A DNA stretch of 32,423 bases from a virus, in the IMG/VR virus record IMGVR_UViG_3300010297_000037, positions 1-32,423 of that record, one strand, 5' to 3'. Below the pieces are notes generated by a model. The model had not been told where the DNA came from. It saw only the letters and a program-made list of their open reading frames with translations, and did no database searches. Positions 414 through 32,133 of this stretch are shown piece by piece. The stretch's first letter is position 1, and the number at the start of each line of letters is the position of its first letter. The translations under genes and the position numbers were made by a program.

Positions 414-688
414 AAACAACTGAGAATACTTATACTCAGGCATTTATATAATCTTATTCCCAAAAGCACAACAGGCGGTTCACCCGATGAGATAAGACTT
501 TTATATGGAACCATAAGATTCCCTGTAATTCCCTGATTTCTTAAGTATCTTTATATTATCAAATGAACTATTATATCATATTAGACTAACGGAGTTTACT
601 ATAACTCGATATGTCGAACTTAGGATTTGCACTATACAAGCAAAAATGAAAGTTGTTTCGTTATTATGTGATTGAGGTATAAGAACTC

Positions 689-708
689 TCATATCATCTT
701 TGATATGA
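689..708. repeat. Hairpin TCATATCA-TCTT-TGATATGA
   Basis: A perfect 8-bp inverted repeat with a 4-nt loop, just upstream of the first well-conserved ATTCGT repeat unit. No T-run follows, so it does not look like a terminator. Confidence 0.5.
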
Positions 709-1095
709 TATTAGGTCTTATGCAATTCATTCGTTATTAGATACTTTACGTCCACTTTATTCTTATATCCAATTCTAATGATAATGAATCTCAAAGTTCA
801 TTCGTGATTAGATAAGATTCGTATGCTTTTTTATAATAGAACAGCATCAAAGAATAAAGATATAGAATTCATTCGTTATTAGATGAGATTCGTATACTGT
901 TTTTTCATAGAAGCATATACACTCATTGACAAATAGAAGATATTCGTTTATAATTCAATTCGTTTAAACTCTTTATAAAGTTTTTGATATAAAGGGTAGT
1001 TTTGTTGCACCTAGAGTTTCGTGTAAAAAGAGACTTGACAGAAAATACAAATTCGTCTATAATTACGTTAAGCAGTTAATTCTTCTCTTCGTCTT

Positions 1096-1257
1096 ATGTT
1101 CAATTCGTATCTTCTAGCACAAAAGAATAAGTATCGTATTACGTTGGAGATTGATGCGATGAGTGATTTTAATCCGCATCAAATAGATTGGAACAAACTC
1201 TTTGAACTTGAAGATAATGAATCAGTGAAGAGTTATGTTGAAGATCTAAACGAATGA
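1096..1257 (+). CDS. Small acidic protein, 53 aa, unknown function
   Basis: An ATG-started frame of 53 codons ending in TGA. The product starts MFNSYLLAQKNKYRITLEID and continues with FNPHQIDWNKLFELE and a C-terminal VKSYVEDLNE. It reads like a folded, acidic small protein rather than random translation, and it resembles my recollection of small conserved proteins in T4-like cyanophages (not checked). There is no clear ribosome binding site before 1096. A GGAG at 1146-1149 sits 9 nt before an internal in-frame ATG at 1159, which would give 32 aa, so the start is uncertain. It lies within the ATTCGT repeat region and one ATTCGT (1103) falls inside it. No function can be assigned. Confidence 0.5.
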   Translation: MFNSYLLAQKNKYRITLEIDAMSDFNPHQIDWNKLFELEDNESVKSYVEDLNE

Positions 1258-1336
1258 TAATAAAATAGAATTACACAGCACATCAATTACATATCTACCA
1301 AAACAGTAAGTATAAGTCTATATTTTCGTGAGATCT

Positions 1337-1397
1337 TATAGTTTATTCGTGGTGTTTTGTGTGTTTGTGCCTCTTTATGTGGGGCAGTTAATATAAA
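1337..1397. repeat. 60-nt direct repeat, copy 1
   Basis: It begins TATAGTTTATTCGTGGTG and ends CAGTTAATATAAA. It matches copy 2 (1411-1470) except for two substitutions (GTGCC versus ATGTC) and one G lost from a G-run. Start-to-start distance is 74 nt, close to the 71-nt period of the wider ATTCGT array. Confidence 0.85.
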
Positions 1398-1410
1398 GAA
1401 TACTGCAAAA

Positions 1411-1470
1411 TATAGTTTATTCGTGGTGTTTTGTGTGTTTATGTCTCTTTATGTGGGCAGTTAATATAAA
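1411..1470. repeat. 60-nt direct repeat, copy 2
   Basis: The near-identical partner of 1337-1397, one base shorter because of a deletion in the GGGG run. A partial third copy of the core (GTTATTCGTGG) follows, with its ATTCGT box at 1490, 71 nt after the box in this copy. Confidence 0.85.
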
Positions 1471-1657
1471 ACAAGACGAATAAACAGTTATTCGTGGTCA
1501 GTTAGTTATTCGTTATTGGACAGTATTGTGTTTTATTGTTGATTGTTTATATTTTTGCGTACCCGCCGTATATAAAAGTTCAAACTACCCTAACCTACAC
1601 TGTATGTCTTTTTCGATGTCTATATCACTCTACTTTTAAAAATTTTCGGAGTAAAAA

Positions 1658-3911: not shown

Positions 3912-4313
3912 ATGCCTCTCGAAAGAGTAAGTCAAGGATTTAAAGATATTAGTATGACTTTTCAGAGCAATCCTCTGACAAATGATTTAATCGCACTCAA
4001 AAACGAAAGTGCGATTGCTCGTTCTATTCGAAATATTGTATTTACTCTTCCTGGTGAAAAATTTTTCAATCCAAATTTTGGAACAAAGATATCGAGAATT
4101 CTTTTTGAAAATAATGATGAAATCTCATCTTCTATTATTAGAAATGAAATAGCATCATCAATTATAAATTTTGAATCAAGAGTGAATCTAAAAGATGTTA
4201 TTATATCAACAGATTTTGATAGAAATGCATTTAATGTTATTATTGTATATGAGATTATAGGGGCAGATGTACCTGCTCAACAATTAGAATTTGTTTTGCA
4301 ACCAACTAGGTAA
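3912..4313 (+). CDS. 25: Baseplate wedge protein gp25
   Basis: At 133 aa it is almost the same length as T4 gp25 (132 aa). It is a member of the GPW/gp25 family, which sits in the inner baseplate and starts polymerisation of the tail sheath. Family features are visible: an N-terminal DISMTFQSNPLTNDL, the core SAIARSIRNIVFTLPGEKFFNPNFGTKI (given in part: IRNIVFTLPGEKFF, about residues 40-53, then NPNFGTKIS), and an alternating strand pattern at the C-terminus. It is followed after 2 nt by gp6, as in T4-like cyanophages, where gp25 and gp6 are adjacent and interact in the wedge. The family is sometimes called lysozyme-like, but no catalytic function is implied. Confidence 0.93.
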   Translation: MPLERVSQGFKDISMTFQSNPLTNDLIALKNESAIARSIRNIVFTLPGEKFFNPNFGTKISRILFENNDEISSSIIRNEIASSIINFESRVNLKDVIISTDFDRNAFNVIIVYEIIGADVPAQQLEFVLQPTR

Positions 4314-6246: not shown

Positions 6247-9200
6247 ATGTCAGATAAAAGAATCCAATTTAGCAACATTGTCCATAATCAACTTCCATCC
6301 TATGTCAAGGAAGAGTTTCCGTTAGTATCAGAATTTTTATCACAATATTATCTTTCTCAAGAGTTTCAAGGGGCACCTATTGATTTAATTCAAAATATTG
6401 ACACGTATATTAAAGTTGATCAAATAACTTCCCAAGCAGAATCTACTATTTTATTTGACGATATTTCTTCTTTTGATAGCACTATCTTTATAGATTTATT
6501 CTCAACACCAACAGGAACAAATGGGTTTCCTGAAAAGTATGGATTGTTAAAAATTAATGATGAAGTAATTACATATACCGGAAAAACTTTTAATTCTTTT
6601 ACTGGTTGTATAAGAGGATTTAGTGGAATAAGTTCTTATACTTCACAAAATAAACCGGATCAATTAGTTTTTTCTAAATCAGAATCAACAGAACATTCTT
6701 CCGGATCAACTATTACTAATTTAAGTTCTTTATTTTTAAAAGAATTTTTATTAAAAATAAAACACCAATTAACACCTGGATTTGAAAATAGGGAATTTGT
6801 TGATGGATTAAATGATTCACTTTTTATTAAACAATCCAAAGATTTTTATCGTAGTAAAGGAACAGATCAATCATTTAAAATATTGTTTAAATCTTTATAT
6901 GGTGAAGATGTACGCATTATTAGACCTAAAGAATATCTTTTTAGACCTTCAGACGCACAATTTCAAATTACAAATGATCTTGTTGTAGAAAGTATTGAAG
7001 GAAATCCTGAAGAACTAGAAAATAATACTCTATATCAAAATGAATATTTAAATTTCACTAAAGCATATGCACCTATTACTAAAGTTGAAAGAATAAGATC
7101 CAAAGAAGGTAAAAATTATTACAAATTAAGTATTGACGCCAGTTACGATAGAGACATTAGAGTAGATGGTGCTTTATATGGAGAGTTTAAAGTTCATTCT
7201 CAAACAAAAGTAATTGGCGAATATAATTCAAACTCAACTGCAATTGATGTTGATTCTACTGTAGGATTTTTGAATAGTGGAGAACTTTCAGTAGTTTATA
7301 ATGATGGTTCTATTGGAGTAATTAAATACACTTCAAAAAATATAAATCAATTTTTTGGATGTACTGGTATAACTGGAATTATTAAAGATTCTTCGACTAT
7401 TAGTGTTAATACATTTGCAAGTGACGAAAATCAAAATATAAAGGTAAGAATTACTTCAGTATTGGGAGGAATTGATATTGTTGATGATACGTTTTCTCAA
7501 AGAAAGAACAATATTTCTGATATAAAAACCTTAGGAGTTAACTCTGAAGATTTTGTTTCTAATAATTGGTTTTTTAATATATCACCAACATACTCTGTAG
7601 AATTTATTTCTTTAGTCGATGATTCGGATAAAACTTATAGGATTATTACCAGAGAAAATAATATTTTTAAAATAGGTGATACCTTAAAAATTAAAGGTAG
7701 TGATAATATAGAAAAAAATTCATTTATTGTTGATATTATTTCAAATAAATCATTTAATATTAAAGGGCAAGGAAATTTATCAATTTCTGATACTTACACT
7801 ATTCAGAAAAATATTTTAAAAACAAATTCATCAACATTCCCAAATATTTCACTTTTTAATGCGAACGTTCAAAACATTTATAAAGACAAAGAAAAAACAT
7901 TAGTAGCATCTGCATCTTTACCTTATTATGGAAGTCAATCATTAAATATATCAAATAAAGAAATATTATTCTCAGGTAATTTTGTCTCAAACACTTTTAA
8001 AATTACTACAAATACAGATCATGGATTTTATACAGGAGATTCTGTATATTATACTCCAGAAAAAATTGAATATAGTTATATAGACCAAAATGGCATTACT
8101 AGAATTGGAATCAAAGTCGCTTCAAATTTATTTGGAGGAGAATTTATTGTCACTGGAATTGATAATGGAAAATTTGTCGAAAATAGAATTCCTCCAGGAG
8201 AAGGAATTTATTTTATTAAAAGAATAGATCCAAATACTATTAAACTTGCACTTAGCAGGTCCGATATTTTTAATTCAAAATTTATTTCAATAGAAAATTC
8301 AGTAACTGTAAATTCTAACAAAATTGTATATTATAACTTCAATAATAAATCTTTGTCTTCACAAAAATTACTTAGAGAAATTAGTACCCCAGTGAATGAT
8401 GGTGGAGTTTATATTACCGAACCTGGATTTACTGGCATTTTGATTAATGGAGTAGAAATATTAAATTATAAATCTAGAGATGTTGTTTATGCCGGTCCTC
8501 TAACTGAAATAGAAGTTACTTCTCCAGGTCAGGGATATGATATCATTAATCCCCCTATCTTATCAATTGAGGATCGTATAGGAGTAGGAGCATCTGGATA
8601 CTGTGCGGTTAAAGGGTCTTTACAAGAAATACGAGTTGTTAATACTGGATTTGATTATGATGAAGTACCAGCAATCAAAATAACAGGAGGGAACGGTATT
8701 GGAGCAAAGGCATTTGCATGTATGAAATTGATTGATCACCAATCAATTTTTAATTCAGAAATAAATTCTGCTCAAATTTCTTTAGTAAATAATACTATTG
8801 GATTTTCAACCTATCATAAGTTTAGAAATGCTGAGAGGGTGATTTATACTACAGATAGTCAACGAGGTGTTGGAGGTCTTTCTACAGATGCCTCATACTA
8901 TGTTTGTGTCCAGTCACCAACACAACTAAAACTTCATAAAACATTGAATGATGCAGTTTCTGGAATTAACACAATATCATTCACTTCTTTTGGAGTTGGA
9001 AATCATTTACTAAGATCTTATAATAAAAAATTAGTACTTGGATCTGTAAATATTCAAAATTCCGGAACAGGATATGAAAATAAAAAAAGAACCGTTTCTA
9101 GTACTGTATCTGGAATTAATACCTCAATCAATCAAATCAATATTAATACTCACGACTTTAAAAGTGGAGAGATTGTAAAATATTCAACAAGTGGAACTGC

Positions 9201-12200
9201 AATTGGAGGATTAACTAATAATACTGAATATTATATAACTGTAGTTGATAATGATAGATTTAAATTATCTCAAGTTGGATCTGAATTTCAATCTAAAGAT
9301 TTCTTTTATAATACAAGACAATTTTTAAATTTTACTTCTATTGGTTCTGGTGTTCACACTTTTAACTATCCAGAAATTTCTGTAGAGGTAATTGGTAATG
9401 TTGGTGGATCTGTTCAATTTAAAGCACAAGTTCAACCAATCTTTAGAGGAGAAATTTTATCAGTCCATTTAGAATCTGGTGGCACAAATTATGGTTCTCC
9501 TGATATTTTAAATCATAATAGAAAACCAACAATCAGTCTTTTAAGAGGTTTTGGAGCACAAGTAACTCCTATTGTATCTAATGGAAGAATTATTGAAGTT
9601 TTAGTAAATTCATATGGTAGTGGATATAATTCTCCACCAAATTTAGATATTCTTGGAGAAGGTATTGGAGCAGTTCTTACTCCAATTGTAGAAAATGGGG
9701 AACTAGTAGAAGTAAAGGTCATAGAGTCTGGTATTGGTTATTCCCCAAATACTACTGTAGTAATAATTACTCCTTCCGGTTCATTTGCCGAATTTTATCC
9801 AAAAATTCAAATTTGGAATGTAAATTTATTTGAAAAATTTCTTCCAATTATTAAAGAAGATGATGGAATATTATCAGAAGGTTTAAATGAAAATTATGGA
9901 CTTCAATATTCACATTTATATGCACCAAGAAAGTTAAGGGAAATTGTTTATTCGACAGATCAAAAAGGAAATATTCTTTATGGGCGAAAAGATTTAAGAA
10001 AATTGTCCAATAAAGAAATAAATTCAACAGATCACTCGCCAATTATTGGTTGGGCATATGACGGAAATCCAATTTATGGACCTTATGGATATCTAACCAA
10101 ACAAGGAGGAATTGTTGCTCAAATGAAATCTGGTTATAGAATTGACCTGAAATCAAATAGACCTTCTTTAACTAATTTTCCACAAGGATTCTTTGTTGAG
10201 GATTACACACATTTTAGCGTTTCAGATGAAACATTTCTTGATGAAAAGAATGGAAGATTTTGTGTAACTCCAGAGTATCCGAATGGAACCTATGCATATT
10301 TTGCTACTATTAATAACGGATTATCTGATTCTTCTGGTGTTTTTGCTGGATTTAAAAAACCAGTATTTCCATTTTTTATTGGAAACGAATTTAAATCAAA
10401 ACCAAATAAATTTAACTTTAAAAAATCTTCAAATCAAGAAGATATTGATCTAAATGAAACAAAGTGGTCCAGGAATACATCACCATATAATTTAACTGAA
10501 AATGGAATATCTTATAATTATCTGGAGTTGCCAAATAATTTAAACCAAACACTCGAAACTGTATTTACTTCCCCAGGCACCATTGAAAATATAAAAATAA
10601 TTTCGGGTGGGTCTGGATATAAAGTTGGAGATAAAATCATTTTTGATAACGAAGAAACACGAGGATCAAATGCATCAGCAGAAGTTGAACGAATTTTAGG
10701 AAAACCTGTAGATACCATTAGTATTGCTTCAACCACCGTTTTTAATGTTGAATTTCATCCAAGTGGAAATCAAGGAACATTTATAGCATTTGCAGAAAAT
10801 CCACATAACTTTATAAATCTGGATACTATTAATCTTTCAGGATTTAATACTACATCATCCTTACTTGAAGGATCATATAAAGTCGGAGTGGCAACAAATA
10901 CAATTGCACTAACTTCTGGAATTGGTAGCATTTCAGTAACGGGTATCGTAACTTATTTTTCAGTTGCAGGAAATCTAAAATATCCAAATATTCGTGAAAA
11001 TGATGTTTTAGGAATTGGAACTGAACAAGTTAAAGTACTTAATATTGATGAAAAATCTTCTAGAATTAGAGTTTTAAGAGGAATTAATGGAACTGTGGGG
11101 TCTTCACATAGTTCTAGTGACATTTTACACGAAATTTCAAGAAAATTAATCATCAATACTGGACTTACTATTCAGTATGATCATAAAGTAAATAAAGAAA
11201 TTTACTTTAATCCAATTGATTCTCTTGGAGTAGGGACAGTTTCTGGGGTAGGAATTGGTACTACTATTGTATTTTCCAATCCTGGAGTTGGAATTACAGA
11301 GATATTTATCCCTACACAATCCATTTACATTCCAAATCACAATCTATCAACAGGTGATGAGTTAATCTATTCTAGTAATGGAGGAATTCCAATTGGAGTT
11401 TCTACAAATGGAATATCAACTTCAGTATCAATTAGTGATCAATCATTATTATATGTTGCTAAGTTCGATGAAAATTTGATTGGTATTTCTACTTTTAGAG
11501 TTGGTCTTGGGACTGCAGGTACTTTTGTTGGATTAACAAGCAATACAAATACTTTTGGATTATTATACTTTACCAATTTTGGTGTAGGTGATTATCATAG
11601 TTTTAAAACAACTTATAATACTCTTATTGGAAATATATCAAGAAATACTGTAACAGTATTTACCTCACAAACTCACGGTTTATTAAACAATGATATGGTT
11701 TTTGTGGATGTAAATCCATCAATTGCATCAACATTTGTAGTTAGATATGATGATTATAATAAAAAACTTTTATTAAATCCTAAAGACTTTATTTCTTCAG
11801 GAATTAATACATCAACAAATACGATTACAATCAACAATCATGGATTTATCAAAGGACAAAAAATAGTCCATACATCTCTATCTCCGTCAATTGGATTAAA
11901 CAATAATAAAGAATATTATATTGTTTTTGTAGACAATAATAATATTAGATTAACTAATAGTTATTTTGAGTCTGTTAATCCAAAACCTGCTGTGGTCGGA
12001 ATTACTAGTGCATCTGACGGTACGTTATCATTAATTAATCCACCAATTGATACTTATAGAAGTTCTTCTGTTATATTTGATTTATCAGATTCTTCACTAT
12101 CATATACTCAACAATCTACAAATTATCCAGCATTTGATCTTAGATTCTTTAAAGATTCAAATCTAACAGAAATTTATGATAGCAATGCAGATGATAATAT

Positions 12201-15200
12201 TTTTGAAGTTCAAAAAACTGGTATTGTTGGTGTTACAAGTGATGCAAAAGTAACTTTAACTATAAATCAACAAACTCCGGAAAATTTATATTTTAATCTA
12301 GTTCCAATTTATAATGGAACATTACCAGAAAATAAAAAACTTATAAGTGTAGATACTGATGTTACCTCAAATAATGCGATACTAGTTAAGTCTAGCATTT
12401 ATAATGGAAGATATAATGTAATTGTAGGATCATCAACATCTTTTACTTATACCATTCCATCAGTTCCGGAAAAAGATTTTTACACTTCAAATCAGTCAAT
12501 TTTAAGTTATGAGACCACTTCTAAAAATACTGTTGGTTCTATTTCCAAAATTAAGATGTCCAATAAAGGGCAAAATTATTATTCTTTACCAAAAATTTCC
12601 GACATCGATTCTATTGAAGGATTTGGGTTTGTTTTGGAACCAGTAAGCAGGTCTATTGGCAAAATAAAAACTACTAGGATCAAAGATATTGGATTTAATT
12701 TTCCTTCAGACTTTACTGCTAGACCTAGTATAGCAATTCCACAGATTATAAAAGTGGATCCGCTGTCATCATTAAAGTCTATTGAAGTTGTTTCTTTTGG
12801 GAGAGGATATATTTCTGCACCAAAACTTTTAGTGTTAGATGGAATAACTGAAAAAGTGGTTCCTGAGATCGATCTTAAACTAACTTTAGGCAATAACAAA
12901 GTTGAAATTTTAAAAAATTCTTTTGCACTTAATGATGTAACTCCAACAATTTTACCTATACAAAATTCTAATGGAGTAGGAATTTCGTCTATTAAATATG
13001 AATCTTCAACTAAAGAAGTAATTGTAAATTTAGCAGTTGGATTTAGCACAGCAAATTCTTTCCCATTTGCTATAAACGATAAAGTTTTAATTGAGAATAT
13101 TAGTGTAGGTGTTAATTCTACTGGAAAAGGATTTAATTCTGAAAATTATAATTATAAACTTTTTAATATTACTTCCGTAAATGCTAATCTTGGTGGATTT
13201 GGATCAGTAACTTATAGTTTAGATGGTTTTCTTAACAACTCAGAAATTCCTGGAATTTTCGATTCAATAAATTCTTCAGGAAGAATAATTGCAAGTAAAT
13301 ATTTTCCAACATTTATTACAAATTTGGAAAAAAGTAATTATCTGGTTGGAGAAGAAGTAACCACAAATTCTACAAAAGGTAGAGTTGAAAACTGGGATTC
13401 AAAGACAAATTTTGTAAGTGTTGTTTCTAAAAATAATTTTAAAGTTGGAGAAATTATTAAAGGATCTGCATCAAAAACACAAGGTATTGTTACAGAAGTA
13501 AATTATTTTGATGCCTTCTTCATTTTATCTTCTTCATCAAGATTTGTAAATGGATGGAAATCTAGTGCAGGGTTTTTAAATGATAATATTCAAAGAATTC
13601 AAGATAGTTTATATTATCAAAACTTCTCATATTCTCTAAGTTCTAGGGTTGACTTTGATACCTGGGATAACACGGTAAGTACTTTAAATCATACATCTGG
13701 ATTTAAGAAGTTTTCTGATTATCAATTAGAATCAAATTTAAGCACAGAAACTTCAAATGCGCTCGTAGTCAATTTGCCTTCAGATGTAACTTCAGTTGAT
13801 GTTGTGAGTGATATAGTTGAGGTTATAAATTTGAACTGTGCGTATGATTTTGATTTAGTAAGAGAAAATGTACTTAGCGGTAGTGAAAGAATATTTTCAG
13901 ATGAAATAATTTTTTCAAATAGAATTTTGACAGATTATGCAGCATCTATTGGAAATAGAGTTCTTTCTATTGATAATATCAGTTCACAATTTAATAGTAA
14001 TCCAAGACCTACACAATTTTCTGAAGTTTATAGATTTAATATTGCCGATATAAGAGCTCAAAAATATATCACATATATCAGAGATAAAAGATTTACTGGT
14101 GAAAGACAACTTTTAATTACTACAACTCTTAGGGATGATACTGGAAATGGATATTTAAATCAATATGCAAGAATTGAAAGTACTTATGATATGGGATCTT
14201 TTGACTTTGTAATTGATGGAACTGAAGGTGTTCTTTTATTCTATCCAACAAAATCTAGCATTAATGATTTTGATGTTACAACTTTATCCTACAATATTAA
14301 TGATAATCTTTCTGGAATTGGAAGTACTAATTTTGGAGAAATAATTGACATTAAATCAAATAGTATATTGGTTTCTTCTGGACCAACAACTATTGTTAGT
14401 ATCGCCAATACTTATAGATCTGCAAAGATTTTAGTTTTAATTGTATCGGATAATCAACAATATGAATTTGATGAATTAACATTAATTCATGATGGAACTA
14501 ATGTTAAATTTTTAGAATACGGACAATTGACTACACACTCATTTGATTCACATTCAAGCAGTGGTCTTGGTACATATTATCCATATTTATCTGGTTCAGA
14601 TCTAAAAATTGATTTTACGCCCAATGTTGGATCTGTAGTGACTGTTAATACTATTCAGGTTTTATTTGCAAATACTACTTCGGTAGGTATAGGTACTTAT
14701 GATATGAAACACGCTAGATTGGAAGGAAGATCCACATCTATTGCTTCAACATCAACTCCATCACCATCTATTATTAGTGAATATCCTGATGCTTACGATA
14801 GCGCATATTTTATCGTACAAGTTTCCGATAATACAAATAATATACACCAAATATCCGAAGTAGCACTAATTGATGATGGAACAGATGTTTATATTACAGA
14901 ATATGCAAATGTCAATACTTTTTCTGGTCTCGGCACAATTGGTGCTCAAAGAACTTCATCGGCAGTTGATTTAATCTTTACACCATTACCAAATATTGGC
15001 GTTGATGTTAAAGTTTATTTAAATGCTTTGAGATATCAAGATGATGAAAAGGATATTCTAAGTTTTGTTAACTCCGAAATTCAAACTGTCTACGGAACTT
15101 ATGAAGGTTCGGAGAGAGATATTAAAAGGGCATTCAATTTAACTCATAAAAATGACCCTATTTTTGAGAGATATTTTGAGGGTTATAATTCTTCCATAGT

Positions 15201-18200
15201 TGATATCGAAAATGACTTTATTATTATACCAAATCATTTCTTTGTAAGTGGAGAATTGGTTAAATATAGCACTGGCATTGTAGGAACCGAGAATTCTATC
15301 GGTATTGCAACTACAAGTTTTGTTGGAATTGGATTAACTGATAAGCTTCCAGAAAATATATATATTGTTAAGTTTAGTGAAGATATAATCAAATTCGCAA
15401 GAACTGCTGAAGATGCGTTGAATATTATTCCAAGAACTTTAGATATTACTAGTGTTGGTATTGGGTCTGAACATAGAATAGTATCTACAAATCAAAATGC
15501 AAAAGTTCTACTTGCAATTGATAATTTAATTCAATCTCCTGTAGTTTCTACTGCAATCACAACTACACTTGCAATTAATGCATTTACGACCGATGATATA
15601 CTTTATTTCTCTGACGCTAATTTATTTTTTGATAGCGATTTAATTCGCATTGGAGATGAAATAATGCGTGTTGAAGGTGTTGGTATTGGAAGTACTAACG
15701 GAATCAGAGTTCGCAGACCATGGTTGGGCACTGTGATTGCTGGTTATTCTACTGGATCTTTAGTTACCAAGATTAGTGGCAACTATAATATTGTAGACAA
15801 TGTTCTTAATTTTGCAGAGGCACCTTATGGAAATATTCTATTAAGTTCCACCACAAATCCCCCAGATGAAAGGGATTGGGTTGGAATATCAACAGGATCA
15901 TTTTTTCAAGGCAGAAGTTTTATAAGATCTGGAATTATAAACTCAATAGAAGAAACATATTCTAAGAATTATATCTTTAATGATGTATCTTCAGAGTTTA
16001 ATGGTATTACTAAAGAATTTACTCTAAAATCTAATGGATTTAATGTTTCCAATATCGAAAATAAAAATGCCCTAATATTAATCAATGATATTTTTCAAGG
16101 ACCAGGATTAAATTATGATTACACATTATCAGAATCTGCTGGAATAACGTCTATTAGATTTACCGGAACCGCAGCATCAGTTTCATATGATATTAATAAT
16201 ACAAGTATTCCTCGTGGAGGAGTCATAGTTTCTGTAGGTTCAAAAGAAGGATTTGGTTATCAACCTTTAGTTTCTGCTGGTGGAACTGCAACGGTTTCTA
16301 TTGCTGGCACTATCGAATCAATTAGTATTGGAAATAGTGGTTCTGGTTATAGAGAAAGTGTTCAGGTTGTTAATGTTGGCGTAAAAACATCGTCTATAGG
16401 AATACCAAATATTGAATTTATTGGAACTGCAATCGTGAGTGGGGGTCATGTTGTAAGTATTGCAATTACGAATCCAGGTACCGGATACACTTCATCTAAT
16501 CCACCATATGTAGTATTTGATAAACCACTATCATATTCTAATATTCCATTAATTTACAGTTCAGGATCTTCTGGAGTAGGTACACAAGCAAAAATTAATA
16601 TAGTTGTTGGACAAGGTTCTAGTATTATTGATTTTGAAATTACAAATACTGGTTATAGGTATGGTCAAAATGAGGTTCTTACAATTCCTGTAGGTGGAAC
16701 TACTGGAATTCCAACCACAGGAATTTCATTCAATGAGTTTCAAATTTCAATTCAAAAGACCACTAAGGATAAATTCTCTGGATGGTCAATTGGAGAACTT
16801 CAGGTTTTTGATAATTTTGATAGTAGATTTGATGGCGAAACATCGTCATTCCCCCTTACAGTTAATGGAAATTTAATCTCCATTCGTTCATTTAAAGGAT
16901 CAAATATCAATGTACAGGATACTTTACTAGTTTTTATCAATGATACTATTCAAGAACCCGGAAAAGGATACGTATTCCTTCCTGGTGGAAGCACATTAAG
17001 ATTCACGGAACCACCTAAGATTGGAGACACCTCAAAGATTCTCTTCTATAGAGGAAGTGGATCTGTCGATGTTGTGGATGTTGATATTTTAGAAACTATT
17101 AAGATTGGAGATGAATTGACCATTGGATATGACCCTTCTCTAGGACAATCTCCAACTTTACAAGAAGAGTCTAGAACAGTTACTAGTATTAATTCTATCG
17201 ATCTTGTCAATACAAATCCATACTTTGGATCAGGAATCACTGGAGATGAAAATATGGAAAGACCTGTGAAATGGTGCAGACAAACTGAAGATAAAATTAT
17301 TAACGAACAAGAAGTTTCAAAAGATAGAATTCTTTACAATGCAGTGATTAATTCATTATCATACTTAATTCAACCTGTTGGAATTGAATCTACTGTTGTT
17401 TATGTTGATAATATAAGACCATTCTTCGATCAAATAAATGAAAACGTTCAATCTTTAGAATTCCAAAAAAAAGTTACCTTTATTCCACAAGAATCTAAAG
17501 TTGGCGCTTCCGCAACTGCAGTCGTATCTATTGCAGGAACCATTACATCTATTGAAGTAACAAATGGTGGACAAGGATATCTTAGTTTACCATTAGTTAC
17601 AATCCAAAATTCTGTTGGAATTGGAACCACTCTAAGTGTTAACGCATCTGCAATATCTTCTATAACTTCAGGAAATGTGACTTCAATTCAAATTGTTAAT
17701 CCAGGTATTGGATATACATTTACAAATCCTCCGATTGTTCTAATTGAACCACCAAATACATTCAATGAAACTAATGAGGTAGAAACTTACGAAGGTGATT
17801 TTGGATATATTGTTGGAATTTATACAGGATCTGTTGGAGTTGCATCAACTGCACTAATATTTGATTTTTATATTTCAGAAAATTCTTTCTTGAGAGATAG
17901 TTCAATAACCGGAGTAACATCAATTAGCGGCATACAAACTGGATACTATTTTGTAACACACAATTCAAGTGTTGGAAATTCAATAACATCATTAGATTCA
18001 AGCGGATTTGTAGTTGGCATAGGAACAACATTTATAGATAATGTTTATCAAGCATCTGCAGTATCAATTGCACAAACTACAGTGTCTGGAATAGGTCTTA
18101 CTTATGTTGTAAGAGTAACTACAAGTGTGCAAGATTATAGTTCCTTGGTTGGAATTAATACGTATAACTTCTTTGGCGAATATAGTTGGGGTAAAATACA

Positions 18201-18324
18201 ACTAAAATCTAGAGTAAAAAATATCGAATATAATGCATACACATTTAATGGAGTTTCTGGATTAACTACTAGCACTATTTTAAAAAGAACTAATTCACTA
18301 AGGTTCTCTGATTATATTACATAA
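6247..18324 (+). CDS. Giant 4025-aa baseplate/tail protein in the gp7 position
   Basis: Position between gp6 and gp8 matches T4 gene 7 (baseplate wedge initiator, 1032 aa), but this protein is four times longer. The N-terminal ~300 residues (MSDKRIQFSNIVHNQLPSYV onward, with FKILFKSLYGEDVRII) probably anchor it in the wedge; the rest is a chain of β-rich modules. Seen in order: a 'DEVITY...RG' module (65-155); 'HGF' modules near 583-680, 842-928, 959-1040, 1693-1790, 1857-1935 and 2986-3080; 'GxGY' glycine repeats near 752-828, 1072-1182, 2098-2199, 3352-3485 and 3764-3837; a YHYH-type domain (GWAYDGNPIYGPYGY at 1268-1282 and PNGTYAYF after 1339); and a tandem ~80-aa duplication (2723-2805 and 2850-2929). 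No transmembrane segment or protease site is evident. It is likely a peripheral baseplate or fibre protein that faces the host. Homology to gp7 itself is inferred from position. Confidence 0.8.
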   Translation: MSDKRIQFSNIVHNQLPSYVKEEFPLVSEFLSQYYLSQEFQGAPIDLIQNIDTYIKVDQITSQAESTILFDDISSFDSTIFIDLFSTPTGTNGFPEKYGLLKINDEVITYTGKTFNSFTGCIRGFSGISSYTSQNKPDQLVFSKSESTEHSSGSTITNLSSLFLKEFLLKIKHQLTPGFENREFVDGLNDSLFIKQSKDFYRSKGTDQSFKILFKSLYGEDVRIIRPKEYLFRPSDAQFQITNDLVVESIEGNPEELENNTLYQNEYLNFTKAYAPITKVERIRSKEGKNYYKLSIDASYDRDIRVDGALYGEFKVHSQTKVIGEYNSNSTAIDVDSTVGFLNSGELSVVYNDGSIGVIKYTSKNINQFFGCTGITGIIKDSSTISVNTFASDENQNIKVRITSVLGGIDIVDDTFSQRKNNISDIKTLGVNSEDFVSNNWFFNISPTYSVEFISLVDDSDKTYRIITRENNIFKIGDTLKIKGSDNIEKNSFIVDIISNKSFNIKGQGNLSISDTYTIQKNILKTNSSTFPNISLFNANVQNIYKDKEKTLVASASLPYYGSQSLNISNKEILFSGNFVSNTFKITTNTDHGFYTGDSVYYTPEKIEYSYIDQNGITRIGIKVASNLFGGEFIVTGIDNGKFVENRIPPGEGIYFIKRIDPNTIKLALSRSDIFNSKFISIENSVTVNSNKIVYYNFNNKSLSSQKLLREISTPVNDGGVYITEPGFTGILINGVEILNYKSRDVVYAGPLTEIEVTSPGQGYDIINPPILSIEDRIGVGASGYCAVKGSLQEIRVVNTGFDYDEVPAIKITGGNGIGAKAFACMKLIDHQSIFNSEINSAQISLVNNTIGFSTYHKFRNAERVIYTTDSQRGVGGLSTDASYYVCVQSPTQLKLHKTLNDAVSGINTISFTSFGVGNHLLRSYNKKLVLGSVNIQNSGTGYENKKRTVSSTVSGINTSINQININTHDFKSGEIVKYSTSGTAIGGLTNNTEYYITVVDNDRFKLSQVGSEFQSKDFFYNTRQFLNFTSIGSGVHTFNYPEISVEVIGNVGGSVQFKAQVQPIFRGEILSVHLESGGTNYGSPDILNHNRKPTISLLRGFGAQVTPIVSNGRIIEVLVNSYGSGYNSPPNLDILGEGIGAVLTPIVENGELVEVKVIESGIGYSPNTTVVIITPSGSFAEFYPKIQIWNVNLFEKFLPIIKEDDGILSEGLNENYGLQYSHLYAPRKLREIVYSTDQKGNILYGRKDLRKLSNKEINSTDHSPIIGWAYDGNPIYGPYGYLTKQGGIVAQMKSGYRIDLKSNRPSLTNFPQGFFVEDYTHFSVSDETFLDEKNGRFCVTPEYPNGTYAYFATINNGLSDSSGVFAGFKKPVFPFFIGNEFKSKPNKFNFKKSSNQEDIDLNETKWSRNTSPYNLTENGISYNYLELPNNLNQTLETVFTSPGTIENIKIISGGSGYKVGDKIIFDNEETRGSNASAEVERILGKPVDTISIASTTVFNVEFHPSGNQGTFIAFAENPHNFINLDTINLSGFNTTSSLLEGSYKVGVATNTIALTSGIGSISVTGIVTYFSVAGNLKYPNIRENDVLGIGTEQVKVLNIDEKSSRIRVLRGINGTVGSSHSSSDILHEISRKLIINTGLTIQYDHKVNKEIYFNPIDSLGVGTVSGVGIGTTIVFSNPGVGITEIFIPTQSIYIPNHNLSTGDELIYSSNGGIPIGVSTNGISTSVSISDQSLLYVAKFDENLIGISTFRVGLGTAGTFVGLTSNTNTFGLLYFTNFGVGDYHSFKTTYNTLIGNISRNTVTVFTSQTHGLLNNDMVFVDVNPSIASTFVVRYDDYNKKLLLNPKDFISSGINTSTNTITINNHGFIKGQKIVHTSLSPSIGLNNNKEYYIVFVDNNNIRLTNSYFESVNPKPAVVGITSASDGTLSLINPPIDTYRSSSVIFDLSDSSLSYTQQSTNYPAFDLRFFKDSNLTEIYDSNADDNIFEVQKTGIVGVTSDAKVTLTINQQTPENLYFNLVPIYNGTLPENKKLISVDTDVTSNNAILVKSSIYNGRYNVIVGSSTSFTYTIPSVPEKDFYTSNQSILSYETTSKNTVGSISKIKMSNKGQNYYSLPKISDIDSIEGFGFVLEPVSRSIGKIKTTRIKDIGFNFPSDFTARPSIAIPQIIKVDPLSSLKSIEVVSFGRGYISAPKLLVLDGITEKVVPEIDLKLTLGNNKVEILKNSFALNDVTPTILPIQNSNGVGISSIKYESSTKEVIVNLAVGFSTANSFPFAINDKVLIENISVGVNSTGKGFNSENYNYKLFNITSVNANLGGFGSVTYSLDGFLNNSEIPGIFDSINSSGRIIASKYFPTFITNLEKSNYLVGEEVTTNSTKGRVENWDSKTNFVSVVSKNNFKVGEIIKGSASKTQGIVTEVNYFDAFFILSSSSRFVNGWKSSAGFLNDNIQRIQDSLYYQNFSYSLSSRVDFDTWDNTVSTLNHTSGFKKFSDYQLESNLSTETSNALVVNLPSDVTSVDVVSDIVEVINLNCAYDFDLVRENVLSGSERIFSDEIIFSNRILTDYAASIGNRVLSIDNISSQFNSNPRPTQFSEVYRFNIADIRAQKYITYIRDKRFTGERQLLITTTLRDDTGNGYLNQYARIESTYDMGSFDFVIDGTEGVLLFYPTKSSINDFDVTTLSYNINDNLSGIGSTNFGEIIDIKSNSILVSSGPTTIVSIANTYRSAKILVLIVSDNQQYEFDELTLIHDGTNVKFLEYGQLTTHSFDSHSSSGLGTYYPYLSGSDLKIDFTPNVGSVVTVNTIQVLFANTTSVGIGTYDMKHARLEGRSTSIASTSTPSPSIISEYPDAYDSAYFIVQVSDNTNNIHQISEVALIDDGTDVYITEYANVNTFSGLGTIGAQRTSSAVDLIFTPLPNIGVDVKVYLNALRYQDDEKDILSFVNSEIQTVYGTYEGSERDIKRAFNLTHKNDPIFERYFEGYNSSIVDIENDFIIIPNHFFVSGELVKYSTGIVGTENSIGIATTSFVGIGLTDKLPENIYIVKFSEDIIKFARTAEDALNIIPRTLDITSVGIGSEHRIVSTNQNAKVLLAIDNLIQSPVVSTAITTTLAINAFTTDDILYFSDANLFFDSDLIRIGDEIMRVEGVGIGSTNGIRVRRPWLGTVIAGYSTGSLVTKISGNYNIVDNVLNFAEAPYGNILLSSTTNPPDERDWVGISTGSFFQGRSFIRSGIINSIEETYSKNYIFNDVSSEFNGITKEFTLKSNGFNVSNIENKNALILINDIFQGPGLNYDYTLSESAGITSIRFTGTAASVSYDINNTSIPRGGVIVSVGSKEGFGYQPLVSAGGTATVSIAGTIESISIGNSGSGYRESVQVVNVGVKTSSIGIPNIEFIGTAIVSGGHVVSIAITNPGTGYTSSNPPYVVFDKPLSYSNIPLIYSSGSSGVGTQAKINIVVGQGSSIIDFEITNTGYRYGQNEVLTIPVGGTTGIPTTGISFNEFQISIQKTTKDKFSGWSIGELQVFDNFDSRFDGETSSFPLTVNGNLISIRSFKGSNINVQDTLLVFINDTIQEPGKGYVFLPGGSTLRFTEPPKIGDTSKILFYRGSGSVDVVDVDILETIKIGDELTIGYDPSLGQSPTLQEESRTVTSINSIDLVNTNPYFGSGITGDENMERPVKWCRQTEDKIINEQEVSKDRILYNAVINSLSYLIQPVGIESTVVYVDNIRPFFDQINENVQSLEFQKKVTFIPQESKVGASATAVVSIAGTITSIEVTNGGQGYLSLPLVTIQNSVGIGTTLSVNASAISSITSGNVTSIQIVNPGIGYTFTNPPIVLIEPPNTFNETNEVETYEGDFGYIVGIYTGSVGVASTALIFDFYISENSFLRDSSITGVTSISGIQTGYYFVTHNSSVGNSITSLDSSGFVVGIGTTFIDNVYQASAVSIAQTTVSGIGLTYVVRVTTSVQDYSSLVGINTYNFFGEYSWGKIQLKSRVKNIEYNAYTFNGVSGLTTSTILKRTNSLRFSDYIT

Positions 18325-27815: not shown

Positions 27816-28661
27816 ATGGCACAACCATCTTCTAGGCAAGAACTTATAGAATATTGTAAAAGAAAATTGGGTGCTCCGGTATTAGAAATTAATGTTGCTG
27901 ATGAGCAAATCGAAGATTTAGTAGATGATGCTGTCCAATTTTTCCAAGAAAGACATTTTGATGGTGTATATCCTACATTTTATAAGTACAAAATTACACA
28001 AAATGATATTGAACGTGGTAGAGCAGGATATAGTGGAGGATCCGTAGGCATAGCGTCCACATCAGTAACTACAAACATAGTCGGTACTGCCACCACATTT
28101 ACTTATTTTGAAAATAGTAATTATTTACAAGTCCCACCAAATGTAATTGGAATCAATAAAATTTTTATGTTTGATGGTGCAAATACTATCACTAGCAGTA
28201 TGTTTAGTGTTAAGTATCAATTATTCCTGAATGATATCTACTATTGGGGAACAACAGAACTTCTCAGTTATGCAATGGTCAAAACATATCTGGAAGATTT
28301 GGATTTTCTTTTAAATACACAAAAACAGATACGTTTCAATAAAAGACAAGATAGACTATATCTTGATGTCGATTGGTCATCTTTAAGAAATGGTCAATAC
28401 GTCATCATAGATTGTTATTCAACTTTAGATCCAAATGATTATTCAAGAGTTTGGAATGATTCCTTTATTAAACCATACTTAACTTCATTGATTAAAAGGC
28501 AATGGGGACAAAATATGATGAAATTTACTGGAGTTAAACTTCCTGGTGGTGTTGAGTTAAATGGAAGACAAATGTACGATGATGCTCAAAGAGAAATTGA
28601 TGTTTTAATGGAAAAAATGTCCAATACTTATGAACTTCCTCCCTATGATCTTATAGGTTGA
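27816..28661 (+). CDS. 13: Head completion (neck) protein gp13
   Basis: At 281 aa it is similar to T4 gp13 (309 aa). gp13 and gp14 form the neck that closes the filled head and accepts the tail. The N-terminus (SSRQELIEYCKRKLGAPVLE, then INVADEQIEDLVDDAVQFFQ) is highly characteristic of gp13 in marine T4-like phages, as is the C-terminal KRQWGQNMMKFTGVKLPGGV (about residues 229-248) followed by a helix with REIDVLMEKM. It starts behind a strong promoter and ribosome binding site. One base after its stop a homing endonuclease gene begins, which separates it from gp14. Confidence 0.92.
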   Translation: MAQPSSRQELIEYCKRKLGAPVLEINVADEQIEDLVDDAVQFFQERHFDGVYPTFYKYKITQNDIERGRAGYSGGSVGIASTSVTTNIVGTATTFTYFENSNYLQVPPNVIGINKIFMFDGANTITSSMFSVKYQLFLNDIYYWGTTELLSYAMVKTYLEDLDFLLNTQKQIRFNKRQDRLYLDVDWSSLRNGQYVIIDCYSTLDPNDYSRVWNDSFIKPYLTSLIKRQWGQNMMKFTGVKLPGGVELNGRQMYDDAQREIDVLMEKMSNTYELPPYDLIG

Positions 28662-28662
28662 G

Positions 28663-29214
28663 ATGAATATGAAAAAGTACTATTGCTATTTTTATATAAG
28701 AGAAGATGGTACTCCCTACTATGTTGGTAAAGGATGCAATGGTAGAATAGACAGCAAAGTTCATCCCGGAATAGGTCTTCCTCCAAAAGAAAGAAGGATA
28801 AAAGTTGCAGAAAATCTTACAGAAGAAGATGCAATGCAAATAGAAAAAATGTATATAAAAAAGTATGGAAGAAAGGATTTAGGAACGGGTATTCTTTATA
28901 ATAGAACTGATGGTGGTGATAATCCTCCTTGTATGAAAAAGGGAAATACTAATCATATTGCAGGAGTAAAAAGATTTTGGGATAATTTATCAATTGAAGA
29001 TAGAAAAAGAAGAGGCAAAAAAATATCAAATACAAAAAAAGGTAAAGGAAATCATATACCATCAAAACCAGTTATGATAAATGAATTAAATAAAAAATTT
29101 CAATCAATAAGAGAGTGTGCAGATTATATTAATGGGGATATTAGTGCGATTTGTAGGTGTCTGAAAAAAAGAGGACAAACTCGTCATCGCGGATATACTT
29201 TTAGTAGGATATAA
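28663..29214 (+). CDS. Free-standing GIY-YIG homing endonuclease
   Basis: A 183-aa protein with an N-terminal GIY-YIG nuclease domain: YCYFYI (7-12) and YYVGKG (19-24) as the two half-motifs, Arg 28 and His 34 after them, Glu 61 in MQIEKMY as the metal ligand, and Asn 80 in LYNRTDGG. A basic linker (about 103-135) follows, then a C-terminal DNA-binding repeat of the NUMOD/IENR type (KKFQSIRECADYINGDISAI at 144-163, ending HRGYTF). All key residues are present, so it is probably active. The family cuts DNA to spread its own gene. It lies 1 nt after gp13 and 2 nt before gp14 without disrupting either, so the gp14 ribosome binding site (AGGA) lies in its 3' end. The Lys-rich, very A-rich sequence contrasts with the neighbours. 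The start could also be ATG 28669. Confidence 0.9.
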   Translation: MNMKKYYCYFYIREDGTPYYVGKGCNGRIDSKVHPGIGLPPKERRIKVAENLTEEDAMQIEKMYIKKYGRKDLGTGILYNRTDGGDNPPCMKKGNTNHIAGVKRFWDNLSIEDRKRRGKKISNTKKGKGNHIPSKPVMINELNKKFQSIRECADYINGDISAICRCLKKRGQTRHRGYTFSRI

Positions 29215-31707: not shown

Positions 31708-32133
31708 ATGGTAAAAAAATTCGACAAATTAAACGAAACATTCAATGTAGATGCGGAAATAGTTCCAGTCGAAGAAGAAAAAGTTTCTGAAAAAATACAA
31801 AAATATACTTCAGATGCCGATGATATTAAAAAAGATTATGATTATGCAAGAGGAAATTTATATTCTTTAGTGGAGAAGGGGCAAGAAGCAATTAACGGAA
31901 TGTTAGAATTGGCACAAGAAAGTGAAATGCCTCGGGCATACGAAGTTCTTGGACAGTTAATTAAAACTACCACCGAAACGACAGAAAAACTTATGGCATT
32001 ACATAAGATTAAAAAGGATGTAGAAGAGGATACTTCAAAAGGAACAACAACCGTAAATAATGCTCTTTTTGTCGGTTCTACTACAGAATTGGCAAAACTT
32101 TTAAAGCAACAATCACAAAATCAATTAGAATAA
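31708..32133 (+). CDS. 16: Small terminase subunit gp16
   Basis: At 141 aa it is close to T4 gp16 (164 aa). gp16 binds and presents concatemeric DNA to the large terminase gp17 at the start of packaging. The sequence shows an acidic N-terminus (FNVDAEIVPVEEEKV), the conserved central helices (YDYARGNLYSLVEKGQEAIN, then GMLELAQESEMPRAYEVLGQ) that form the coiled-coil oligomerisation core, and the C-terminal signature NNALFVGSTTELAKLLKQQ. It directly follows gp15, as in T4 order. A NATAAATA box overlaps its stop codon, and gp17 would be expected after one more gene. Confidence 0.92.
   Translation: MVKKFDKLNETFNVDAEIVPVEEEKVSEKIQKYTSDADDIKKDYDYARGNLYSLVEKGQEAINGMLELAQESEMPRAYEVLGQLIKTTTETTEKLMALHKIKKDVEEDTSKGTTTVNNALFVGSTTELAKLLKQQSQNQLE

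Follow-up and report, generated by a model that had tools for sequence, protein, structure and literature searches.

What is the function of a hexamer that is repeated on one strand just ahead of the structural genes of a T4-like cyanophage? The question is raised by an IMG/VR contig whose gene order (gp25, gp6, gp13, gp16) identifies it as coming from such a phage, and whose 32,423 nucleotides are called the window below. The repeated boxes occupy a noncoding gap 3' of a run of small genes and 5' of the structural (tail/head) cluster. A glycosyltransferase-like gene lies on the gp25 side of that cluster, the gene for the gp25 baseplate wedge is at 3912, that for a neck protein at 27816 and that for the terminase small subunit at 31708; gp6, gp7, gp8 and gp14 were identified by gene order together with annotation in relatives. 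The gp7-like baseplate gene (4025 aa, 6247-18324) fills more than one third of the window, and a homing-endonuclease-like gene (28663-29214; phrog_314, E 4e-6) separates the neck protein gene from that for gp14. The box stretch is not wholly noncoding, because a 53-aa gene on the + strand (1096-1257), assigned to phrog_12516 with the function label "unknown", lies inside it as the sole recognisable gene. This small gene is conserved in other cyanophages, and the structure model of its product (mean pLDDT 76, pTM 0.43) is too poor for a fold search.

A periodic array of paired boxes

The hexamer ATTCGT starts at 729, 800, 817, 871, 888, 942, 958, 1051, 1103, 1345, 1419, 1490 and 1508 on the + strand, with the last copy ending at 1513, and at only two positions (1250 and 1476) on the - strand. 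The initial annotation had counted 13 copies on one strand between 729 and 1508 and judged them far above chance. The count was reproduced exactly: over 931 nt, the region's own dinucleotides predict 0.67 copies and those of the window 0.17, the maximum in 2000 simulations with the region's own dinucleotides was 5 copies, and in the rest of the window the hexamer occurs at the chance level. Three units exactly 71 nt apart had also been described, and these were found at 719/790/861, while the degenerate units reported near 655 and 939 correspond to TTCGT at 657 and 943. Taken unit by unit along the + strand, the array begins with the degenerate TTCGTTATTATGTGATTGAGGT (657-678), which has three mismatches to the unit pattern and precedes the next unit by 73 nt. 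Unit 1 (730-751) has the box TTCGT and a degenerate second box, TACGT; units 2 (801-822) and 3 (872-893) both read TTCGT-N12-TTCGT; and the last unit is TTCGTTTATAATTCAATTCGT (943-963). The second box, placed by the annotation 16-17 nt after the first in three units, follows at 17 nt in two of them and at 16 nt in the last. Farther on, where 60-nt repeats had been described as 74 and 71 nt apart, repeats of 47 nt lie 74 nt from each other (1337/1411), and the perfect hairpin at 1476-1495 is present with 8 bp (ACGAATAA-acag-TTATTCGT). Tandem Repeats Finder, a check that had been proposed, did not report the array, because the spacers have diverged.

The box array is neither a chance cluster nor a decayed gene. 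Repeat periods of 69, 70, 71, 72 and 73 nt break any reading frame, so a decayed coding sequence was rejected; a coding repeat in the antisense frame (LYETYLITNE) was likewise rejected, since only arrays with a period divisible by 3 leave that frame open. Nor is the array missing from close relatives, which, along with coding decay, the initial annotation had named as fatal to it. When the period was looked for in relatives, as that annotation had advised, a strict scan for two consecutive units located 43 other IMG/VR contigs with this array in the corresponding place, and the end element used alone as query located 37 contigs. Wherever the locus could be checked, the array surrounds the phrog_12516 gene and has the same glycosyltransferase gene 3' of it, and eight array-bearing contigs (58-156 kb) contain the pattern TTCGT-N12-TTCGT at this locus only. 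Searched by blastn against annotated phages, the region gave no match; the annotated isolates have the phrog_12516 gene and lack the array, and most relatives with the same adjoining structural genes also lack it. Among 84,980 prokaryote genomes scanned, the only match, in Falkowbacteria, was to short AATTCGT repeats of another type. A 17-nt core match occurs once in L158, within an unrelated stretch of low complexity, and was set aside. The viruses with the array form an uncultured clade of T4-like cyanophages.

The array lineages are environmental contigs related by descent, and 65 distinct units from them yield the core AATTCA-TTCGT-GATTAGATAAG-(A/T)-TTCGT-AT, with flanks near background. 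Each unit therefore pairs two TTCGT boxes, as a rule at a distance of 17 nt, within a core of about 27 nt that recurs every 69-73 nt; the 60 unit-to-unit intervals measure 69, 70, 71, 72 and 73 nt in 18, 9, 5, 27 and 1 cases, respectively. The spacers of about 47 nt are saturated with changes (identity 0.36 versus 0.31 for random sequence), and those within one array are as dissimilar as those from different arrays, yet their length is near constant, which argues that the distance itself is selected. Between close relatives, 0.4% of sites differ in the boxes, 2.1% in the linker and 7.6% in the spacers. Box substitutions are thus about 20 times rarer than spacer substitutions in close pairs, a contrast somewhat inflated by selection bias because units were picked for similarity to the box pattern. 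On this comparative evidence the boxes are under strong purifying selection, and the combination of conserved box and spacing with drift in between is what had been predicted for a binding array. Orientation is also maintained: in the upstream part of the array, TTCGT favors the + strand by 178:1 across 18 lineages.

Promoter-like elements and the leader

Several promoter-like elements, all of them called as consensus matches, are threaded through the array. The core of a T4-type late promoter, TATAAATA in the context GTTGTATAAATAAAACAAC, is an exact motif match on the + strand at 406-413, about 250 nt 5' of the array, and occupies the same upstream place in most array lineages. In cyanophages the late promoter is NATAAATA, and cyanomyoviruses have dual sigma70 and NATAAATA promoters while MotA and AsiA are missing (PMC2984593). 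Two relatives carry a second repeat array 5' of the boxes, with either a 31-nt GGTCTTGTAAATGTGCTTATAAATGTCTCTG in 5.3 copies (L124:5864-6028) or a 10-nt ATAAATGCTC in 7.8 copies (L132:2580-2657); both look like repeated late-promoter-like TATAAAT cores.

Within the window's array, a + strand sigma70-like element, TTGACA-N17-TATAAT (926-954), has the TTCGT box at 943-947 between its -35 and -10 sequences, and counterparts of this arrangement occur in L121, L123, L124, L125 and L127. A second TTGACA-N17-TATAAT on the + strand (1035-1063) belongs to the small gene, has TTCGT directly 5' of its -10 sequence and was found in 18 of 18 representative lineages. Several lineages have the combined motif TTGACA-N11-ATTCGT-N-TATAAT in their last unit, and the window has it in the promoter of the small gene. 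In addition, a + strand TATAAT (832-837) lies 9 nt past unit 2, an offset kept in the corresponding unit of several lineages. Enrichment of TATAAT at +31 (z 3) comes chiefly from one corresponding unit per array, and the idea of an array of equal promoters was rejected on that ground. Non-array relatives (L006:4385-4415, L011:3540-3570, L102:3160-3190) share an element (C/T)TTGTGATCT(T/A)(T/A)GCGTGCA..CTATCA 5' of the phrog_12516 promoter, and its GTGAT core resembles the array unit.

Downstream of the small gene the picture changes. The + strand TTCGT boxes at 1325, 1346 and 1420 (1325-1424) lie in an inverted-repeat region with a 47-nt duplication and turn over quickly between relatives, and most boxes 3' of the small gene are not conserved among close relatives. 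The terminal element (1476-1513, + strand), in which the hairpin is followed 18 nt on by a second box (TTATTCGTGGTCAGTTAGTTATTCGTTAT), is nearly invariant, with a substitution rate of 0.008 versus 0.15 in its surroundings. Beyond it, at 1588-1599 on the + strand, is CCCTAACCTACA, the leader of the glycosyltransferase-gp25-gp6 cluster, which is common to non-array cyanophages as well. Most of these cyanophages have a ACTACCCTAACCTACAGAGGTGACAAATCGACCTC leader 5' of the gp25 cluster (window 1560-1625; L102:3640-3680; many other loci), preceded by TATATAAAA and usually also by a sigma70 promoter; the window has a variant after CCTACA.

The leader site suggests where the array came from. Non-array relatives carry 0 to 4 TTCGT there (36 on the + strand versus 9 on the - strand), and most have a sigma70 promoter about 85 nt 5' of the CCCTAACCTACA leader. 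Boxes were present in 8 of the 36 non-array relatives with this usual promoter versus 12 of the 17 without it, an anti-correlation (Fisher p = 0.0018) that is uncorrected for kinship and confounded by descent. All 24 distinct array leaders have a box pair near the usual promoter position, and 22 of them lack that promoter. Given boxes in non-array relatives and in every array leader, the box is probably older than the array, which looks like an expansion of it.

Candidate functions

The sequence of the boxes, their pairing, orientation, period and conservation, their overlap with promoter-like elements and their unique location are direct observations, and three kinds of element had been proposed for them at the outset: a binding-site array, a repeated structured RNA, and a replication or packaging element. 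The prediction for a binding array was matched, the RNA lacked the support predicted for it, and replication gained no positive evidence. Our tentative preference, with a probability of roughly 0.45, is for an iteron- or operator-like DNA binding array that controls the early-to-late junction. Rigid spacing, promoter overlap, a single locus and strand-neutral folding together favor an array bound by protein as DNA. Counted on the same side are the low rate of box changes, the + strand bias of the boxes, the box pairs of the array leaders near the usual promoter position, and the anti-correlation of boxes with that promoter in non-array relatives. The array would be a cis-acting DNA element made of periodic, directional sites where the early region of small genes meets the structural genes, with each double box bound by a sequence-specific protein of phage or host origin. 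At their fixed spacing, several copies would assemble a nucleoprotein complex that spans the tandem sigma70-like promoters and lies beside the late promoter, and this complex might switch transcription of the phrog_12516 gene and of the late leader. Protein binding, action on DNA instead of RNA, and the direction of control are what we infer here. Two features count against the DNA-bound array: spacings of 17 and 70 nt correspond to no whole number of helical turns, and the non-terminal downstream boxes, with their fast turnover and hairpin setting, fit poorly to a single operator code.

Among known systems, operator or stoperator arrays of the mycobacteriophage L5 type are similar in that an asymmetric site recurs many times in connection with promoters. 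Unlike these, the present array is restricted to a single locus, keeps a strict 69-73 nt period and occurs in lytic phages that have no known repressor. T4 middle promoters (MotA box plus -10) also combine a short box with a TATAAT -10 sequence, and there too boxes can replace a sigma70 promoter. The MotA box, however, lies 12-13 nt 5' of the -10 at many middle genes and differs in sequence and spacing, whereas the double box was found only at the array locus (eight contigs), in phages that lack MotA and AsiA (PMC2984593). Control of early and middle transcription in T4-like cyanophages has been described as unclear (PMC2984593) because those T4 regulators are missing. A more specific proposal, rather unlikely as it stands, is that a phage transcription switch specific to this clade targets the array, replaces the late-operon sigma70 promoter and supplies the "middle" control missing without MotA and AsiA. 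A selected, single-locus, promoter-threaded array directly 5' of the structural genes offers a concrete handle on cyanophage transcription control, and its 27-nt core could serve as bait for a binding protein.

It is somewhat unlikely that the array acts instead as a + strand noncoding or leader RNA, in which UUCGU in single strands and loops would titrate an RNA-binding protein, as a CsrB/RsmZ-like decoy, or mark sites of processing. Nearly all boxes are on the transcribed strand, as an RNA motif would show, and in L082 and L139 a sigma70-like promoter about 20-30 nt before the first box reads into the array. Decoy RNAs of this type likewise repeat a short one-strand motif, some copies of it in hairpin loops, with pairs 16-22 nt apart. 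Compared with shuffled sequences, the inverted repeats of the downstream part fold much more stably (mean z -4.8), and some have TTCGT in the loop and compensatory changes, but the folding z is equal on the two strands (-4.76 and -4.77) and the asymmetry between G.U and A.C probably does not go beyond base composition. The boxes are about as unpaired as all positions (0.41 versus 0.40), so that the motif is not exposed in loops of a strand-specific fold as expected of a CsrB-like RNA; the CsrB/RsmZ motif is moreover GGA, and a decoy has no need of a fixed 69-73 nt period. The covariance models of Rfam 15 gave only chance-level matches in the region, and a tRNA search of it gave nothing.

A replication origin whose iterons are bound by an initiator, or a pac site recognised for packaging, would account for the clustering of directional repeats with inverted repeats and promoters in a single large noncoding locus of each genome, and tandem directional repeats of one site, the mark of an iteron origin, are indeed present. 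Iteron arrays such as those of lambda ori, T4 oriE and RepA plasmids share the conserved boxes in short directional tandem repeats, the AT-rich noncoding DNA and the adjoining promoters, and T4 oriF is close to gene 25. Cyanophage Syn9 has been predicted to replicate from a single theta origin (PMC2984593). Nevertheless, both roles are quite unlikely. The array is missing from most relatives with the same neighbouring structural genes, a 156-kb contig has no GC-skew turn at the array, and no unusually weak duplex was found there. No initiator gene was recognised nearby, the gene inside the array having only a low-confidence structure model, and the double-box units with neutral spacers of about 47 nt also depart from iteron arrays.

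Selfish or neutral repeat expansion without function, suggested by a copy number that differs among lineages and by the turnover of downstream boxes, is very improbable and already largely refuted by the purifying selection on the boxes, the fixed period and a locus that stays the same in many lineages. Repeats of about 27 nt that alternate with spacers of near-constant length also resemble CRISPR arrays and RNA anti-CRISPRs; both were rejected, since the repeats are degenerate, the one match in the prokaryote genomes is unrelated, and the spacers are inherited, homologous between close relatives and drifting.
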